The translations under genes were made by a program, and so were the position numbers. Positions 54,338-63,228 of a DNA stretch of 64,000 bases are shown one piece after another. The notes beneath the pieces were generated by a model. The model was not told the DNA's origin. It ran no database searches and was given only the letters and a program-made list of their open reading frames with translations. Each line of letters opens with the position of its first letter. Within the stretch, counting starts at the first letter, position 1. The stretch is from Halobellus sp. MBLA0158 (lineage in GTDB: Archaea; Halobacteriota; Halobacteria; Halobacteriales; Haloferacaceae): assembly GCF_041477585.1 (NCBI RefSeq), contig NZ_JBGNYA010000001.1, positions 2,170,001 through 2,234,000 on the forward strand, written 5' to 3'.

Positions 54338-54709
54338 TTACTCCTCGACCGGGAACGTCTCGTGGAGCACGTCGTGGGCGTCGCCCAGTCCGTCGAGGAC
54401 GCTCTCGCCCTGGTCGGTCAGGCGCGAGAGCGCGCGTTCGGCGTCGCGGACGGCGACGAGTCGGCCGCGGAGGTAGTCGTATTCGGGATCGTCCGCGTCG
54501 CTCTCGGCGATCTCCGCTTCCAGGTCGACGAGCGCGGCGTCGAGGTGTCGCTGGAGCTCCGAGAGCGTCTCCGCGTTCGCCAGGGCCTCGATCGGGCCCT
54601 CCAGGTGACCGTCCAGTTCCTGTTCGGCGTGCTCGCGCACGCTGCGGTCGGCGGTGCCGAGCACGTTCATCAGTCCGAGTCGTAGCGCTTCGATTTCGTG
54701 GCAGCTCAT
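54338..54709 (-). CDS. DUF3209 family protein
   Basis: A 123-residue helical, acidic protein starting MSCHEIEALRLGLMNVLG. The N-terminal Cys-His-Glu (CHE) is a likely metal or cluster site. The family (DUF3209) recurs next to cobalamin genes in haloarchaea, but its function is unknown. It is the last gene of a large minus-strand cob operon, starting 3 bases after the CbiX-ferredoxin fusion gene ends. Confidence 0.85.
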   Translation of the reverse strand: MSCHEIEALRLGLMNVLGTADRSVREHAEQELDGHLEGPIEALANAETLSELQRHLDAALVDLEAEIAESDADDPEYDYLRGRLVAVRDAERALSRLTDQGESVLDGLGDAHDVLHETFPVEE

Positions 54710-54712
54710 TGC

Positions 54713-55939
54713 TTAGAGTGTCTGATCGACGAGGTCCGAGACGATGCGGTCCCGATCGAGGTGGGACGAGACGATGCGTTCGGCGTCCGCGGCGTCGACG
54801 CCGCCGTACCAGACGCCGTCGGGGTAGACGGCGACCATCGGGCCGTCGCCGCAGCGACCCAGGCACGACGAGCGCGTGATCCGCGCGTCGCAGGCGTCGG
54901 AATCGCGGGCGGCCTGCCGGAGGCGTTCGAGGACCTCCGGCGCGCCGTCGGCGGCGCAGGTCTGGTTCGTGCAGACCGCGACGTGGTGGGCCGGCGCGTC
55001 GTGGACGTGCGGGTCGTCGTCGACGTCGTCGCGGTCGGCGTGGGAGGCCTGGTGGGTCAGCGCGCGCAGCGTCGCCCGCGCGCCGCCGACGTCCGCCTCG
55101 TAGCCGTCGAGTTCGACCTTGTACTTGCAGGTGTCACACGACATCTCCACCGACTCCGTGCGCGCCTCCTGCCAGCGGTCGCCGAGCACGTCCAAGAGTC
55201 GGGGGTCGGTCCCCAGCGGGTCGCCCGCGGCGGCGTCGACGTACGGGTACTCCCCGTCGAAGTCGGCGGTCCACTCGCGGACGCGACCCGTGAGCACGCC
55301 GTCGCCGAGCATATACGGGAGCACGACGACGCCGTCGGGGCGGTCCTTCGCGAGCGTGTGGAGCGCGTCCGTCAGCTCCGGCTCCGTGACCCCGACGAAC
55401 GCGGTCTCGACGCGGTCGAACGCCCGGCCCTCGTAGAGCAGCCGCGCGAGCTTGTGCGCGTCGGCGTTCGCGTCGGGGTCGCTGGAGCCGCGGGCGCAGA
55501 CCACGACCGCGACGTCGTCGGTCTCACGGTCGAGCCCGAGCGTCGCCTCCACGTCGGCCGCGCGGTCGTCGAGGAGGTCGACGAGCGCGGGGTGGATCCC
55601 AAGGTGCGCGCCGTTGTGGATCGTGAGCGACGGGTGGGCGGCGCGGGCGCGCTCGACCGCCAGCGGCACGTCGTTCTTCACGTGGCTCGCGGCGAACAGC
55701 GAGAGGTGGACGACCGAGATCCGGGAGACGCTGGCGGCCAGCCCGTCGATCGCGTCCGATAGCGACGGCTTCGCCAGTTCGAGAAAGCCCGCGTCGACGG
55801 GGACGCCGAGCCGGTCCTCCAGGCCGGCGGCGAGCTCCCGCACCTGGTCGTTAGACTTCTCGCGGCGGGAGCCGTGACCGGCCAGGAGGACGGCCTCGTC
55901 GTCGAGCCTCGCCGACGCGGCCGAGGCGTTCGTCGTCAT
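54713..55939 (-). CDS. cbiX: CbiX chelatase fused to a 2Fe-2S ferredoxin domain
   Basis: A 408-residue fusion. Residues 15-260 are a two-repeat CbiX, with active His in LLAGHGSRREKSND, VVHLSLFAASHVKNDVP and a second half VVVCARGSSDPDAN. A CDTCKY motif follows at about 270. A His/Asp-rich linker (HQASHADRDD, DPHVHDAPAHH) leads to a thioredoxin-like ferredoxin with CTNQTCAADG and SSCLGRCGDGPMV. The CbiX part would insert Co2+ into sirohydrochlorin-type substrate; the linker may hold metal. The start overlaps the next upstream gene's stop (ATGA). Confidence 0.92.
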   Translation of the reverse strand: MTTNASAASARLDDEAVLLAGHGSRREKSNDQVRELAAGLEDRLGVPVDAGFLELAKPSLSDAIDGLAASVSRISVVHLSLFAASHVKNDVPLAVERARAAHPSLTIHNGAHLGIHPALVDLLDDRAADVEATLGLDRETDDVAVVVCARGSSDPDANADAHKLARLLYEGRAFDRVETAFVGVTEPELTDALHTLAKDRPDGVVVLPYMLGDGVLTGRVREWTADFDGEYPYVDAAAGDPLGTDPRLLDVLGDRWQEARTESVEMSCDTCKYKVELDGYEADVGGARATLRALTHQASHADRDDVDDDPHVHDAPAHHVAVCTNQTCAADGAPEVLERLRQAARDSDACDARITRSSCLGRCGDGPMVAVYPDGVWYGGVDAADAERIVSSHLDRDRIVSDLVDQTL

Positions 55940-56646
55940 TCCGCGAGCGACCCCACCTCGCGGCCGGCCGCGCGCTCGACGCTCCGCCGGAGCTTCCCCC
56001 GCCGCGAGTCCGAGTACAGCCCCGAGGCGTCGCTTCCGGCGTAGAGCCAGCGGGCGACCTCCTCGACGTCGGCCTCGTCGGCCAGGCCGAACCAGTACCC
56101 GCCCGAGGAGGTCTCCGAGAGGTCCTCGGTGGGGGCGTGCGGCTCGGCGGCATCGAGCTGCGACCGGACCGTCTCCAGGCACGCCGCGTCGTCGTGGACG
56201 AACGAGACGCCGACCGACGCCGACGACTCCCGGAAGCAGACGGTCCCGCAGGCTTCGAGGATCCCCCGGGTCAGCTGCGGCCGGTGGTCCGCGAAGGCGT
56301 CGAGCCGGTAGCCGCCGGGTTGGTCGTCGATCGGGAGCCCGAGCGCCGCGGCGGCGCGCTCGGCCGGCGCGCCGAACACCTTGAGTTCGTACTCGTCTTC
56401 GAACCGGACGATCGAGGCGTCGTGGGCGGACTCGCGCTCTGCGACCTGGTGATCGCGATCGGTCCGCGCGGTCCCCGCCACGGTGGCGAGTGCGTCGGCC
56501 GCGGTCGGGTCCGCGGCCCGGACTGTCACGCAGTCCCGCGAGAGGTCGCCGTCGCCGACGACCCGGCCCCAGAAGTACGCCGTCTCGGGGGTCGCGGCGA
56601 GCAGGTCCGCGGCGGGCTCAGGCATCGGCGTCGCGGCGTCGCTCAT
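55936..56646 (-). CDS. Cobalamin-locus protein with degenerate LAGLIDADG-like fold
   Basis: A 236-residue protein starting MSDAATPMPEPAADLLAATP. Two halves show homing-endonuclease-like patterns. The first is AYFWGRVVGDGDLSRDCVTV, followed by a helix and ELKVFGAPAERAAAALGLP. The second is PQLTRGILEACGTVCFRES, followed by SVGVSFVHDDAACLETVRSQ and GGYWFGLADEADVEEVARWL. The first repeat keeps the acidic residue of the GDG motif; in the second the equivalent position is Cys (EACG), so nuclease activity is unlikely. It overlaps both neighbours by ATGA and is embedded in the cob operon, so it probably has a recruited role in B12 synthesis. Confidence 0.65.
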   Translation of the reverse strand: MSDAATPMPEPAADLLAATPETAYFWGRVVGDGDLSRDCVTVRAADPTAADALATVAGTARTDRDHQVAERESAHDASIVRFEDEYELKVFGAPAERAAAALGLPIDDQPGGYRLDAFADHRPQLTRGILEACGTVCFRESSASVGVSFVHDDAACLETVRSQLDAAEPHAPTEDLSETSSGGYWFGLADEADVEEVARWLYAGSDASGLYSDSRRGKLRRSVERAAGREVGSLAE

Positions 56647-56939
56647 CGTTCGCCCCCTTGGGCCTGCGCCGTCGCCCCTTCTGTCTCGGCGGCCGTCCGC
56701 GTCACCTCGATGGCGTCGAGCGGACACGCACGGGCGGCCGCTTCAGCGTCCCTCAGGCGGTCGTCGTCGGCGTCGACGACGAGTTCGTCGCTGTCGGTCG
56801 GATCCGCGGCGGCTCCGTCTCCCGCTTCGATCGCCGCCAGCCCGTCGTCGGCCTCGACGAAGCGGTCGTCGCGGACGAGACACGCGAAGACGCCGTCGCA
56901 GGCCTCGCGGTCGAGTCTGATGCGGTACTCAGTAGTCAT
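56643..56939 (-). CDS. Small ferredoxin (3Fe-4S/4Fe-4S type)
   Basis: A 98-residue acidic protein starting MTTEYRIRLDREACDGVFAC. Three cysteines are visible, in CDGVFAC and ARACPLDAIEV. This C-x5-C...CP pattern is like single-cluster 3Fe-4S ferredoxins. It probably carries electrons for reductive B12 steps. The stop overlaps the downstream LAGLIDADG-like gene, and its start overlaps the cbiH stop by 11 bases. Confidence 0.82.
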   Translation of the reverse strand: MTTEYRIRLDREACDGVFACLVRDDRFVEADDGLAAIEAGDGAAADPTDSDELVVDADDDRLRDAEAAARACPLDAIEVTRTAAETEGATAQAQGGER

Positions 56940-57968: not shown

Positions 57969-58922
57969 TCAGAAGTCGTCGACGTCACGCCCGCCGCGCG
58001 GGGTGACGAGGTACTTTCGCTCTCGATTCTCCCAGACCGCGGTCTCGTGGTTGCCGATCAGGATGGACGTCCCCATCCCGCCGACCTCGTCGTCGTGGTC
58101 CGTGGCTTCGCCGAGCGTAGTGATCGTGTGCGTCTCGTCGTCGAGGTTGCGCCCGGCGTCGCCGCGGCCGGCGTCGTTGAAGATGCCGACCGGGACGTCG
58201 TCGGCGCGCTCCTCGCTCACCACTTCGATCGCGCGCTCGTAGTCGCGCCAGCAGTTGTAGAGGACGATCACGAAGCCGCTGATCGCCGCCGCGCGGAGCT
58301 TCTCTTCGATCTCGTCCCAGCCGCGCCACTTGTCCGACAGCGAGACCGTACAGAAGTCGTTCGACAGCGGCGCGCCGAGGTTCGCCGCGCCGCCGAGCGC
58401 CGCCGTCACGCCGGGGACGACCTCGATCGGGACGTCGTCGGCGCCCTCGGCGTCGGCCATCGTAAAGAGGAGGTCGCTCTTGCCGTAGACGTTCGGATCG
58501 CCGCCGGAGACGTGGGCGACGTCCTGGCCCGCGCGGACGCGCTCGAAGGCCTCCCGTGCGAGTTCGATCTGCCGCCCCATCGTCGAGCGGACGAGCGTCT
58601 GCCGGCGTCCGTCCGGGCGTTCGAGGATCGTGCCCGTCTCCTCACCGGGCCTCTGATCGCCCGCCGAGGAGGCCGCGTCGCTCGCGGCCGATCCGCCGTC
58701 GGCGGCCGCCTCGACTTCGGCGGCCTCGGGGGGTAAGGTCCCGTCGCGCCGGAGGAACTCCTGGTAGAGGTTCGAGGCGATCACGCAGTCCGCCGTCGCG
58801 ATCACGTCCGTCGCGCGCTGGGTCATCGCGTGCGGGAGGCCGGGGCCGATGCCGACGACGTAGAGCGTGCCGCGGTCGTCGTCGGGGGAGGCGTCGGCAG
58901 AAGTGCCGGGAGCGCCCGCCAT
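57969..58922 (-). CDS. cbiH: CbiH-family precorrin C17-methyltransferase paralogue
   Basis: A 317-residue methylase: VVGIGPGLPHAMTQRATDVI, VSGGDPNVYGKSDLL, VVPGVTAALGGAANLGAPL and ILIGNHETAVWENRERKYLV. A 35-residue low-complexity insertion (about 75-110, DGGSAASDAASSAGDQ) interrupts the N-terminal half. It is clearly related to its neighbour, yet divergent. One of the two may be specialised for a different step. The stop is 5 bases before the next cbiH gene. Confidence 0.9.
   Translation of the reverse strand: MAGAPGTSADASPDDDRGTLYVVGIGPGLPHAMTQRATDVIATADCVIASNLYQEFLRRDGTLPPEAAEVEAAADGGSAASDAASSAGDQRPGEETGTILERPDGRRQTLVRSTMGRQIELAREAFERVRAGQDVAHVSGGDPNVYGKSDLLFTMADAEGADDVPIEVVPGVTAALGGAANLGAPLSNDFCTVSLSDKWRGWDEIEEKLRAAAISGFVIVLYNCWRDYERAIEVVSEERADDVPVGIFNDAGRGDAGRNLDDETHTITTLGEATDHDDEVGGMGTSILIGNHETAVWENRERKYLVTPRGGRDVDDF
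58679..58702. repeat. 24-base direct repeat in cbiH linker (pairs with 60924-60947)
   Basis: This 24-base stretch, which encodes the DGGSAAS part of the low-complexity insertion in the second cbiH, is identical to 60924-60947 inside the C-terminal linker of cbiL, in the same frame. Identical DNA in linkers of two separate genes suggests a copied segment. Confidence 0.7.
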
Positions 58923-58923
58923 T

Positions 58924-59931
58924 CTACCGCCCCACCGCCACGGTCACGGCGTCGTCGAATCGCTCTTTCTCCCGCGCGAGTTCGTGCTCGCGTCCCCCGG
59001 CGATGGCCGACGCCTCGGCGATGCCAGGCCAGCCGATGAGCTCCTTCGAGCGCGACGGCGACGGGCCCTCGAAGCCTTCGAGCGTCTCCTTCTCGAAGAG
59101 GACTACGCCCGCGCCGATCTCCTGGGCGGCCGCGTAGAGCCCGTCTTCCCCTTCTTTTCGGGTTCCGGTCGCGACGAAGTCGACGTCGTCGAAGTCGAGG
59201 TCCAGGTCGCCGAGCGCCGACTCCCAGGCGTCGAGCACCTGGGCCTTCTCGACGCCCGCGACGGTCCCGGTCCCGAGGACGACGCCCGCCTCGCCGTTGC
59301 GCTTGAGGACGGTCACGTCGTCGTCGACCAGGACGGCGCGCGGGCCGTCGAGACGGACCACGGGGCCGAGGTTCTCATTCAGGACCGCGAGGTTCGTCGC
59401 GACCGTGGAGTCGCCGTTGACCACGTGGGCGTCCAGCGCCTTCGCCTTGCTCTCGACGCCCTGCTTGCCCGCGGCCTCGCTCGCGGTCGTCATCGCGGGC
59501 ACGGCCCCCAGCTGCGAGAGGTCGTGGGCGACCTGATTGGCGCCGTGGTGGCCGCCGGTGATCGGGATCGCCCAGGTGAGTTCCTCGTCGACGACGACGA
59601 TCGCGGGGTCGTCCCACTTGTCGTCCAGCAGGGGCGCGGTCTTCCGCATCGCGATCCCCGAGGCCATCAGCCCGACGAAGCAGTCGTACGCGCCCCAGTG
59701 CTCGGCGAAGACGTCGCCGTGGTACTCGATTACGTCGACGGTCTCGTACGCGTCGCCGATGCCGTCGACGATCTCGCGGGCGGTGTCGAGCTTCCGCTCG
59801 AAACTGACGATCGCGATCTCTTCTGCGACCTCGCCGTCGGAGTCGGGCGTCGAGCAGTGGCCGCCCGAGCCCTCGGTGTCTGTCGCGCTGTTCGCCTCGT
59901 CCGTGCCGTCCGTGTTCGCGTCCGTGCTCAT
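58924..59931 (-). CDS. cbiG: Cobalt-precorrin-5A hydrolase
   Basis: A 335-residue CbiG, opening the C20 lactone and releasing acetaldehyde. After a low-complexity acidic N-terminus it shows FVGLMASGIAMRKTAPLL, WAIPITGGHHGANQVAHDL and TTASEAAGKQGVE. The C-terminal domain has GTGTVAGVEKAQVLDAW and VATGTRKEGEDGLYAAA. The start at MSTDANTDG is chosen; an ATG 15 codons upstream would overlap cbiF. The stop is 1 base from the downstream cbiH start. Confidence 0.93.
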   Translation of the reverse strand: MSTDANTDGTDEANSATDTEGSGGHCSTPDSDGEVAEEIAIVSFERKLDTAREIVDGIGDAYETVDVIEYHGDVFAEHWGAYDCFVGLMASGIAMRKTAPLLDDKWDDPAIVVVDEELTWAIPITGGHHGANQVAHDLSQLGAVPAMTTASEAAGKQGVESKAKALDAHVVNGDSTVATNLAVLNENLGPVVRLDGPRAVLVDDDVTVLKRNGEAGVVLGTGTVAGVEKAQVLDAWESALGDLDLDFDDVDFVATGTRKEGEDGLYAAAQEIGAGVVLFEKETLEGFEGPSPSRSKELIGWPGIAEASAIAGGREHELAREKERFDDAVTVAVGR

Positions 59932-59944
59932 ACTTTCATCTGCC

Positions 59945-60850
59945 TCAGTCGTCGGCCTCGCCGTTGGCCGTGTCATTCTCCCCGCTCTCGCCTGCGCCGC
60001 GGTTCGCCCAGTCGCCGTAGAGGTAGGAGCGCTCGTAGCCCTCCTTGCGCGCCGCGTCGCCGATCACGACGAGCGCGGAGGCGCGGTAGCCCGCCGCCTC
60101 GACGCGCTCGCCGATCGTCCCGATCGTGCCCTCGATGACGTCCTCGTCCGGCCAGGACGCGTGGTAGACGACCGTCACGGGCGTGTCGGGATCGCGGCCG
60201 GCGTCGAGGAGGCGGTCCATCGTCTCCGCGACGGCGTGGGTCCCGAGGTAGACGCAGGTCGTCACGTCGCCCATCTCGACGAACTCGGCGATGTGGTCGT
60301 CCTCGGGGACGAGCGTCTTGCCCTGCGGCCGCGTGAAGGCGACGTGGTTGGCGACGCCGTTCAGCGTCAGTTGGGTGCGGAGGGTGGCCGCGGCCGCGAA
60401 CGACGAGGTCACGCCCGGGACGATGTAGGTCGGGACGCCCTCGTGTTCCAGTGCATCCATCTGCTCGACGGCCGCGCCGTAGATCGCGGGGTCGCCGCTG
60501 TGGAGGCGCACGACGTCCCTCCCCGCCTCGTAGGCGTCGCGCATCAGCGGGACCAACTCCTCCAAGTCCTTGCCGATGCTCGACACCGTCTCCGCGTCGG
60601 CGCAGTACTCCTCCAGGAGGTCACTGTTGACGAGCGAGCCCGCGTGGACGACGAGGTCCGCGTCCTCGACGAGCTCCCGGCCGGTGACGGTCAGGAGGCC
60701 GGGATCGCCCGGTCCGGCGCCGATGAAGGGGATGCCCTCGCCGACGTCGCCGGCGTTCCGCGCCTCGATGCGGGGATCGCGCTCCCGCGCGCCCGCCGCG
60801 GTCTCAGCGTCGATGGCGGTCTGTGGGTCGGCCGCGCCGGTGTCGGTCAT
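59945..60850 (-). CDS. cbiF: Cobalt-precorrin-4 C11-methyltransferase
   Basis: A 301-residue SAM methylase with the CbiF signature FIGAGPGDPGLLTVTGRELV, VVHAGSLVNSDLL, RLHSGDPAIYGA and VVYHASWPDEDVIEGTIGTI. It methylates C11 of cobalt-precorrin-4. A 35-residue N-terminal extension and an acidic tail are haloarchaeal additions. It overlaps cbiL by ATGA. Confidence 0.94.
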   Translation of the reverse strand: MTDTGAADPQTAIDAETAAGARERDPRIEARNAGDVGEGIPFIGAGPGDPGLLTVTGRELVEDADLVVHAGSLVNSDLLEEYCADAETVSSIGKDLEELVPLMRDAYEAGRDVVRLHSGDPAIYGAAVEQMDALEHEGVPTYIVPGVTSSFAAAATLRTQLTLNGVANHVAFTRPQGKTLVPEDDHIAEFVEMGDVTTCVYLGTHAVAETMDRLLDAGRDPDTPVTVVYHASWPDEDVIEGTIGTIGERVEAAGYRASALVVIGDAARKEGYERSYLYGDWANRGAGESGENDTANGEADD

Positions 60851-61680
60851 CGGCGCACCCCGTCTCCCGCACGCGGGTCGTCGCCGCCGGCTTCGCCCTC
60901 GGCGCGCTCCGTCTCGCCGAGCCCGCTCGCGGCCGATCCGCCGTCGGTCTTGGCGGTCGGCTCCGCGTCGGACTCGGCCGCTTTGGACGCGTCCTCAGTG
61001 TCGAACGCGGCGGTGGCGGGCGTCGCTCCCGCGCCCCGCTTTTCGGCGTAGGCCAGCGTGTAGTAGTCGCGGTCGTCGATCTCGCTCGGGTCGTCGGTCA
61101 CGACCGTCTCGCCCTGCTCCATAAACAGCCGCCGGCCGTAGACGACGTCGTAGCCGGCCTCGGTGAGACCCTCGTGGGTCGCGGGCGCGTCGGTGACCTT
61201 GAAGAGGATCAGCCGGTCCGGACCGACGGGCGCCGCGCCTCGAGCGGCTTCCCGGAGCGCGAGGCGCTCGCCGGCGGCGACTTCCACGCCGAGCGCGGTC
61301 GCGAAGGCGGTCACGGCGCTGACGCCGGGGACGACTTCGAGATCGACCTCGGGGTGGAACGCCGCGAGCGTCCGGCGCAGGTGGCCGAACGTGGAGTAGA
61401 CGTTCGGGTCGCCGAGCGTGACGAACGCGGCGTCGCCGTCGCGGGCGCGCGGCGCGATCTCCGCGGCGGCCGCCTTCCAGGCGCGCCGGAGTTCGTCCTC
61501 GTCCCGCGTCATCGGGAAGTCGAGGTCGCCGATTCGCTCCTCGGGGACGTGCTCGGTCGCGACGCTCCTGGAGAGCCGGCCGGGCGAGTAGACGACGTCC
61601 GCATCGTTCAGCACGCGCTTGCCGCGCACCGTCACCAGGTCGGCGTCGCCGGGGCCAAGCCCGACGCCGTAGAGCGTCAT
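60847..61680 (-). CDS. cbiL: Cobalt-factor II/precorrin-2 C20-methyltransferase
   Basis: A 277-residue methylase starting MTLYGVGLGPGDADLVTVRG. Family motifs are VVYSPGRLSRS, FVTLGDPNVYSTFGHL and VVPGVSAVTAFATALG. It methylates C20, early in corrin formation. The C-terminal 45 residues are a Ser/Asp-rich linker containing the 24-base DNA repeat shared with a cbiH gene. It overlaps cbiT and cbiF by ATGA at both ends. Confidence 0.94.
   Translation of the reverse strand: MTLYGVGLGPGDADLVTVRGKRVLNDADVVYSPGRLSRSVATEHVPEERIGDLDFPMTRDEDELRRAWKAAAAEIAPRARDGDAAFVTLGDPNVYSTFGHLRRTLAAFHPEVDLEVVPGVSAVTAFATALGVEVAAGERLALREAARGAAPVGPDRLILFKVTDAPATHEGLTEAGYDVVYGRRLFMEQGETVVTDDPSEIDDRDYYTLAYAEKRGAGATPATAAFDTEDASKAAESDAEPTAKTDGGSAASGLGETERAEGEAGGDDPRAGDGVRR
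60924..60947. repeat. 24-base direct repeat in cbiL linker (pairs with 58679-58702)
   Basis: Identical to the segment in the second cbiH gene and read in the same frame (DGGSAAS on the minus strand). It sits in a linker not needed for catalysis. Confidence 0.7.
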
Positions 61681-62264
61681 CGGCGGCCTCCGTCCGCCGC
61701 GGCGTCGGGTGCCGCGTCGACTCCCCCGACGAGCATATACACTGGATTCTCCGAATCGAAGCTCGTCGCGCCGGCGAGCTCGTAGCCGTGACTCACCTGG
61801 AACTGGACGACCTCCTCCAGGAGGCCGCGCTCGCGGAACGCCTCCGTGGCCGCACCGGCCACTTCGAGCCGCGAGACGTTCATCACGATCCGGTCGACGC
61901 CGGTCTCGACGGCGCGGTCCAGCACCGCCTCGTAGTTCCGACTGCCGCCGAGGAAGAGGGTGTCCGCGTCGTCGGGGAGCCCCTCGGGCGCCTCGGTCGC
62001 GCGGAGCGTCACGTCGGCGTCGGCGACGTCGATACCGTTCGCCGCGAGGTTCTTGCGGGTCGTTTCGAGCCGGTCCGGCTTGCGTTCCAAGGCGGTCACG
62101 CGGCCGGCCCGGCGGGCCGCTTCGGCGGTCACGGCGCCGGTACAGGAGCCGACCTCCGCGAAGTGGTCGGCGGGGTCGAGGTCGAGTTTGGCGAGGAGCA
62201 CGGCCCTGACCTCGGGCTTCGTCGGGCCGGCCTTCGCGTCGTGCGGGAGCGATACCTGAGCCAT
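61677..62264 (-). CDS. cbiT: Cobalt-precorrin-6B C15-methyltransferase (decarboxylating)
   Basis: A 195-residue Rossmann SAM methylase starting MAQVSLPHDAKAGPTKPEVR. The SAM loop is AEVGSCTGAVTAEAAR, followed by VTALERKPDRLE and DTLFLGGSRNYEAVLDRA. It methylates C15 and removes the C12 acetate carboxyl, in partnership with CbiE. It is the first gene of the minus-strand operon cbiT-L-F-G-H-H-ferredoxin-LAGLIDADG-cbiX-DUF3209. A TTTTAC box lies about 26 bases upstream of the ATG. Confidence 0.94.
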   Translation of the reverse strand: MAQVSLPHDAKAGPTKPEVRAVLLAKLDLDPADHFAEVGSCTGAVTAEAARRAGRVTALERKPDRLETTRKNLAANGIDVADADVTLRATEAPEGLPDDADTLFLGGSRNYEAVLDRAVETGVDRIVMNVSRLEVAGAATEAFRERGLLEEVVQFQVSHGYELAGATSFDSENPVYMLVGGVDAAPDAAADGGRR

Positions 62265-62412: not shown

Positions 62413-63228
62413 ATGGCCGAGAACGCGGACGACGCGGAGGAGTTCGGCGTTCTGCGGAGCAAGCGGAACGCGACCAGGTACCAGATCCTCGTCCAGATCG
62501 CCGAGCGCCAGCCCGCGGTCAATCAGCAGGAGATCGCCGACGCCATCGGCATCACGGCCCAGGCCGTCAGCGACTACCTGCAGGACCTCGTCGAGCAGAG
62601 CTACGTCAACAAACACGGCCGGGGCCGCTACGAGGTGACGAAGGAGGGCGTCGACTGGCTGATCTCCCAGACCGACGAACTGCGCCGCTTCATCGAGCAC
62701 GTCTCCGAGGACGTGATCGGCCAGGTCGAGATCGAGACCGCGATCGCGACGACGGAAATCCGCGAGGGCGAGACGGTCTCGCTGACGATGCGGGACGGCG
62801 TCCTCCGGGCGATGGCCGGCGACACGGGCTCTGCGACGGCGGTCGCGGTCACCGACGCCGACCCCGGCCGGGACGTCGGGATCACGAACGTCCAGGGCGT
62901 CGTCGACTACGACCTCGGGACCGTCACCGTGGTCGCGGTGCCGCAGGTCCAGAACGGCGGCAGCGCCGCCGTCCCGACAGACCGGGTCCGAGCGCTGGCC
63001 GACGAGCACGACCTCGTGGCGGTCGCCGAGACCGTAGCGGTCGCCGTCGCCGACGCCGCCGACCTCGATCCCGACATCCGTTTTGGGAGCGCGGTCGCGG
63101 TCGGGGAAGCCGCCGCCAGGGGCTTGGACGTGCTGCTCGTGGCCGCCACCGACGTGCTGTCGAGCCACACCGACAAGCTCCGCGAGCAGAACGTCAGCTA
63201 CGAGGTCGTCGACATCGTCGAGGACTGA
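62413..63228 (+). CDS. Winged-helix transcriptional regulator
   Basis: A 271-residue protein starting MAENADDAEEFGVLRSKRN. The HTH is RYQILVQIAERQPAVNQQE, then ADAIGITAQAVSDYLQDLV, with a wing GRGRYEVTKEG, as in MarR/TrmB-like haloarchaeal regulators. A beta-rich C-terminal domain (about 90-265) has repeated VAVAV stretches and may bind a ligand. It is divergent from the cbiT operon across 148 bp, which makes it the best candidate regulator of the B12 genes; this is inference. Dispersed element copy D follows its stop. Confidence 0.85.
   Translation: MAENADDAEEFGVLRSKRNATRYQILVQIAERQPAVNQQEIADAIGITAQAVSDYLQDLVEQSYVNKHGRGRYEVTKEGVDWLISQTDELRRFIEHVSEDVIGQVEIETAIATTEIREGETVSLTMRDGVLRAMAGDTGSATAVAVTDADPGRDVGITNVQGVVDYDLGTVTVVAVPQVQNGGSAAVPTDRVRALADEHDLVAVAETVAVAVADAADLDPDIRFGSAVAVGEAAARGLDVLLVAATDVLSSHTDKLREQNVSYEVVDIVED

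Follow-up and report, generated by a model that had tools for sequence, protein, structure and literature searches.

Known LAGLIDADG proteins cut DNA, act as intron maturases or, in the case of WhiA, serve as a transcription factor. According to the available part of PMC4850268, WhiA and the 4Fe-4S protein WhiB control the WhiA regulon together. The cobalamin cluster of Haloferax volcanii encodes HVO_B0055, for which the accessible text of PMC8305020 assigns no function; in the same text (2021), HVO_B0055 and its neighbours are proposed as fillers of missing B12 steps, and four unassigned haloarchaeal cob-cluster genes are put forward for two such steps. A role in sensing or regulating cobalt has been suggested for the Fe-S/His tail of the Priestia megaterium CbiX (PMC8390425).

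Here, we analysed a gene for a 236-residue protein in the window, the whole stretch of 64,000 nucleotides from Halobellus sp. MBLA0158. The gene belongs to an operon with the order cbiT, cbiL, cbiF, cbiG, cbiH1, cbiH2, ferredoxin, the gene for the 236-residue protein, cbiX (with a 2Fe-2S tail) and DUF3209. Its features, in window positions, are as follows.

61677 to 62264, minus strand: cbiT, first gene of the operon (start set at MAQVSLP)
60847 to 61680, minus strand: cbiL (start set at MTLYGVGLG)
59945 to 60850, minus strand: cbiF
58924 to 59976, minus strand: cbiG
57969 to 58922, minus strand: cbiH1, second tetrapyrrole methylase, a candidate for the CbiD step in the accessible text of PMC8305020
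56929 to 57963, minus strand: cbiH2, tetrapyrrole methylase
56643 to 56939, minus strand: ferredoxin of 98 residues (PF13459, Fer4_15; 4Fe-4S) at the HVO_B0056 position, translationally coupled upstream of the gene for the 236-residue protein
55936 to 56646, minus strand: the 236-residue protein (236 codons and stop), with a predicted LAGLIDADG fold and, judged from sequence, a non-nuclease
56542 to 56583, minus strand (derived from residue numbers): motif 1, residues 22 to 35, TAYFWGRVVGDGDL, with the unconserved catalytic-acid position D32
56239 to 56277, minus strand (derived from residue numbers): motif 2, residues 124 to 136, QLTRGILEACGTV, in which C133 replaces the catalytic acid and after which the invariant C137 follows
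54713 to 55939, minus strand: cbiX cobaltochelatase with two CbiX domains and a C-terminal thioredoxin-like 2Fe-2S domain, coupled downstream of the gene for the 236-residue protein
54338 to 54709, minus strand: DUF3209 protein (PF11483), which co-occurs with the 236-residue protein and is missing from the same three oxidase-less genomes

The open reading frame for the 236-residue protein, described in an earlier note on this DNA, is real and lies on the minus strand, which that note had left out; the ATGA overlap reported there on either side, with the ferredoxin gene upstream and cbiX downstream, measures exactly 4 bases at each end. The genes cbtA, chlID, cobN and cbiC are also found near the operon. 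Divergent from cbiT, a winged-helix protein (MarR_2 and DUF7839) is encoded at 62413-63228 on the plus strand; its homologues adjoin cbiT in 36 of 62 loci, and it is likely an operon regulator. By gene order and close relatives, the 236-residue protein appears to be the orthologue of HVO_B0055: it is homologous to that group, its gene lies in the cob cluster with ferredoxin on one side and cbiX on the other, and its family includes orthologues from several other Haloferax species. Most annotated plasmid-borne copies carry the NCBI label "cobalamin biosynthesis protein."

Plain sequence searches of Pfam, NCBIfam and the PDB with the 236-residue protein gave nothing useful (no Pfam family matched even at E<=10), and a PDB profile search returned chance matches only. 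The two LAGLIDADG-like motifs that had been read from the sequence are nevertheless real (residues 22 to 35 and 124 to 136), and PF14528 (LAGLIDADG_3) was matched by 10 of 22 homologues (best 1.6e-4) and, in a larger set, by 15 of 60 (best 3.6e-5). The AlphaFold2 model, built with 60 homologues (pLDDT 86, pTM 0.86), contains the helix-strand-strand-helix-strand-strand-helix plan twice; after residue 202 it has just one 4-residue helix and one longer helix. Among the matches listed in the fold comparison, all 49 PDB entries with E<=1e-3 have the LAGLIDADG fold and include I-Tsp061I, I-DmoI, endonuclease-bearing VMA inteins and WhiA, with I-DmoI and I-Tsp061I giving the best matches (E 3e-6 to 1e-4); many of the viral fold matches are named LAGLIDADG homing endonucleases or intein-bearing proteins. 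The order of elements in the model, the LAGLIDADG_3 matches, and the PDB and viral fold matches therefore confirm the homing-endonuclease fold expected in the earlier note, and the assignment is well supported at the level of the predicted structure.

Conservation at the catalytic positions was examined in 94 distinct homologues, none of which (0/94) carries acids at both. Position 133, that of the motif 2 acid, is Cys in 92 of the 94, with one Ala and one Thr, whereas position 32, that of the motif 1 acid, is Asp in just 66, the remainder having N, S, G, A or another residue. The acid-to-Cys replacement reported earlier thus corresponds to C133; conservation of the Cys residues holds, C137 being invariant, but the variability of the residual Asp had been overlooked. 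The residues H75, E131, C137, G146, S148, Y202, R215 and K218 are invariant in all 94 homologues, position 151 is His in 87 and Ala in six, and the C-terminal segment (R215, R216 and K218) is basic and conserved. The genome of the window also contains ordinary LAGLIDADG domains in very long open frames of 1877 and 1055 residues (L113-L117, G000:C1 158-175 kb), which are probably inteins. Profile alignments to the inteins of this genome cover single domains, with the motif in the expected register, and were used for register only because their probability is low (5-6 percent). In them, C133 falls on the catalytic D/E position and H151 pairs with the Asn at which the second strand of the following hairpin ends, so the motif 2 nuclease site has been converted to Cys and, mostly, His. 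A dead active site, and hence a protein that is not a nuclease, is well supported by these sequence comparisons; H75, C133, C137 and H151 would be clustered in space.

The 236-residue protein was found in 22 of 60 genomes of the same family. A scan of a genome collection gave 157 relatives, from which 80 named loci, nearly all labelled haloarchaea, were kept; in a phylum-wide sample of 295 genomes, all matches fall within the same order, and the protein family is haloarchaea-specific in the surveyed genomes. The gene is directly followed by cbiX in 80 of the 80 named loci and preceded by ferredoxin in 76, and a search of viral contigs gave no sequence relative. This constant synteny and the lack of viral relatives agree with the earlier view that the gene is an operon member and not a selfish insertion. 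Among 146 haloarchaeal genomes of at least 97 percent completeness, CbiG is present in 76; the 236-residue protein occurs in 72 of these 76, compared with 0 of the 70 that lack CbiG. As the earlier note had anticipated, CbiD (PF01888) and CbiJ (PF02571) were each found in 0 of the 146 genomes, while control genomes do match. DUF3209 is present in the same 72 genomes and in G341; among the 14 control genomes, it occurs in Thermus and Haloferax only. In a Leptospira cob cluster (L161:12808-16231), CbiX, DUF3209, a FAD-dependent oxidoreductase and CbiD lie together, the oxidoreductase adjoining DUF3209.

Other arrangements occur in G341, G187 and G005. In G341, an oxidase-positive genome with ferredoxin, CbiX and DUF3209 that lacks the 236-residue protein, ferredoxin is followed by an extra cbiX without the 2Fe-2S tail where the gene is expected (L121:11434-13888). 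G187 has a divergent homologue away from the cob operon, in the row CDF, homologue, rhodanese, CDF (L122:7445-10454); its ferredoxin lies in the cbi operon, and its CbiX and DUF3209 lie on a third contig. In this one genome, the row links the family with metal handling at a site other than the cob operon. In G005, a member of the same genus as the window, the cbi genes are split over two places (L124, L156), one with cbiT-L-F-G-ferredoxin and an open reading frame resembling cbiA, the other with a weak cbiG and cbiH1-cbiH2, the homologue, cbiX and DUF3209.

The heme-copper oxidase gene COX1 is absent from 4 of the 146 genomes, namely G067, G118 and G342, which are the sole CbiG-positive genomes without it, and the CbiG-negative G369. 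G067, G118 and G342 retain cbiTLFGHHX and cbiC and lack the 236-residue protein, ferredoxin, DUF3209 and the 2Fe-2S tail of CbiX. Fisher's test for the 236-residue protein against COX1 gives 6e-5, a value that overstates the evidence because the genomes are related. In one tree built with FastTree, which was used for the cbi trees, the three oxidase-less genomes have cbi genes that form one branch (support 1.0); with members of other families in the phylum as the root, these genes are basal to the haloarchaeal ones (0.94 and 0.99). This basal place could be long-branch attraction, since the family of two of the oxidase-less genomes has another genus with the module. The module may have been added after the split of the oxidase-less operons, or lost with fast evolution; as the three operons group together or sit basal, the link to the oxidase, drawn from three genomes, may represent one evolutionary event. 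In the outgroup operons, cbiC comes after cbiH, and frames read as cbiD and cbiE come next; in haloarchaea ferredoxin and the gene for the 236-residue protein come after cbiH2. Halodesulfurarchaeum is obligately anaerobic and oxidase-negative (PMC5437934).

We tentatively favour the reading that the 236-residue protein is a LAGLIDADG protein that has been exapted, is not a nuclease and serves the cobalt-early pathway of oxygen-respiring haloarchaea in cobalt or redox handling, a function that we infer. With more reserve, we suggest that the nuclease metal site may have become a Cys-based site handling cobalt or a cobalt-corrinoid, and that a module with ferredoxin, the 2Fe-2S CbiX and DUF3209 may allow oxygen-breathing archaea to use the cobalt-early pathway, which is independent of oxygen. 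The homing-endonuclease ancestor would have lost its catalytic acids and no longer cut DNA; the second active site would have turned into a Cys-based site of C133 and C137, with the invariant E131 nearby, H75 elsewhere and H151 in most homologues. Cobalt or a cobalt-tetrapyrrole would be bound at this site, and the protein, the 4Fe-4S ferredoxin, the 2Fe-2S-tailed CbiX and DUF3209 would constitute an accessory module that delivers cobalt, or holds the right cobalt state, for early insertion in cells living with oxygen. The accessory-like pattern, DUF3209 beside CbiX in Leptospira and the CbiX tail of Priestia may point to the proposed cobalt or corrinoid binding and to the partnership with ferredoxin and CbiX, and the connection with oxygen is likewise suggested. 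Counting against this accessory role, residue 151 is Ala in six homologues, G341 has the module partners without the protein, and the G187 homologue is unlinked to ferredoxin or CbiX.

A somewhat unlikely alternative is that the 236-residue protein acts as a WhiA-like regulator or as a cobalt/redox sensor of the cob operon, possibly partnered with the ferredoxin as WhiA is with the Fe-S protein WhiB. The fold matches include WhiA (3hyi, 8dy9), known to be a LAGLIDADG protein without nuclease function, the shared control by WhiA and WhiB in the available part of PMC4850268 offers a parallel to the protein and its ferredoxin, the basic C-terminal segment is conserved, and the G187 homologue sits among metal-efflux genes. 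However, the HTH domain that WhiA carries, according to the accessible part of PMC11701221, has no match in the 236-residue protein, and no WhiA or HTH Pfam match was found in the protein and its homologue sets. Furthermore, the protein is acidic overall (pI 4.5), like the cob enzymes, it stays inside the operon in every one of the named loci, and a winged-helix regulator is encoded divergently at cbiT in 36 of 62 loci. The binding of cob DNA or RNA raised in the earlier note is possible on this evidence, but it is not favoured.

That the 236-residue protein is itself a pathway enzyme is unlikely. It would fill a missing step, an idea raised in the earlier note and, broadly and with reference to the four unassigned cluster genes, in the accessible text of PMC8305020; possible cases are the reduction of cobalt-precorrin-6A (the CbiJ step), for which the neighbouring ferredoxin would supply electrons, and the C1 methylation (the CbiD step). 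The absence of CbiD and CbiJ from the haloarchaeal genomes, the close tracking of CbiG, the coupling to the ferredoxin gene and the invariant Cys, His and Arg residues are in its favour. However, three genomes with cbiTLFGHHX and cbiC do without the protein, CbiD and CbiJ alike, so these steps do not in general depend on it, and its role as a general CbiD/CbiJ replacement was downgraded. In addition, the protein has no Rossmann or methyltransferase fold, and neither the cobalt-precorrin-6A reductase profile of CbiJ (PF02571) nor the C1-methyltransferase profile of CbiD (PF01888) matches it. Haloarchaea are not alone in lacking CbiJ: Methanosarcina acetivorans, a control with CbiD and CbiG, has no match to it either. 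The best candidate for the missing C1 methylation is CbiH1, an additional tetrapyrrole methylase that the three oxidase-less genomes have kept. The distribution pattern separates the four unassigned cluster genes and thereby narrows the haloarchaeal B12 question: a core step is an unlikely role for any gene that the oxidase-less genomes lack, and the case for CbiH1 in C1 methylation gains strength.

The reading that the operon harbours a homing endonuclease gene, still active or active until recently, is suggested by the fold and by the many homing endonucleases and intein-bearing proteins among its viral matches; it is highly improbable and was rejected on conservation, the motif 2 acid being gone in 94 of 94 homologues and the motif 1 acid often gone, while the gene keeps one operon place and lies outside any intron, intein or phage and is no free-standing invader.

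Under the favoured accessory role, the known range of the LAGLIDADG fold would grow by a protein with a Cys-converted active site and a permanent place in a B12 operon. Among the papers listed by a literature search joining LAGLIDADG with B12 terms, none makes the link; exaptation of the fold is already known from WhiA, and its occurrence in a biosynthetic operon seems to be new. I-DmoI and I-Tsp061I, monomeric archaeal LAGLIDADG homing endonucleases, share the two-repeat fold and the two motif helices, but the 236-residue protein lacks the catalytic acids and is fixed in a metabolic operon instead of being intron-borne. WhiA (DUF199) likewise has a LAGLIDADG fold without nuclease activity (TM-score of about 0.5); however, it is a bacterial transcription factor with an HTH, whereas the present protein is haloarchaeal and shows none. 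Priestia megaterium CbiX-L, with its Fe-S and His-rich tail, resembles the haloarchaeal system in that Fe-S elements have been added around the insertion of cobalt in an organism making B12 by the cobalt-early route (PMC8390425), but there the Fe-S part is a chelatase extension and no LAGLIDADG protein is involved. HVO_B0055, whose accessible description in PMC8305020 contains no mention of LAGLIDADG, occupies the same place in its cluster, between the ferredoxin position of HVO_B0056 and cbiX1 (HVO_B0054).
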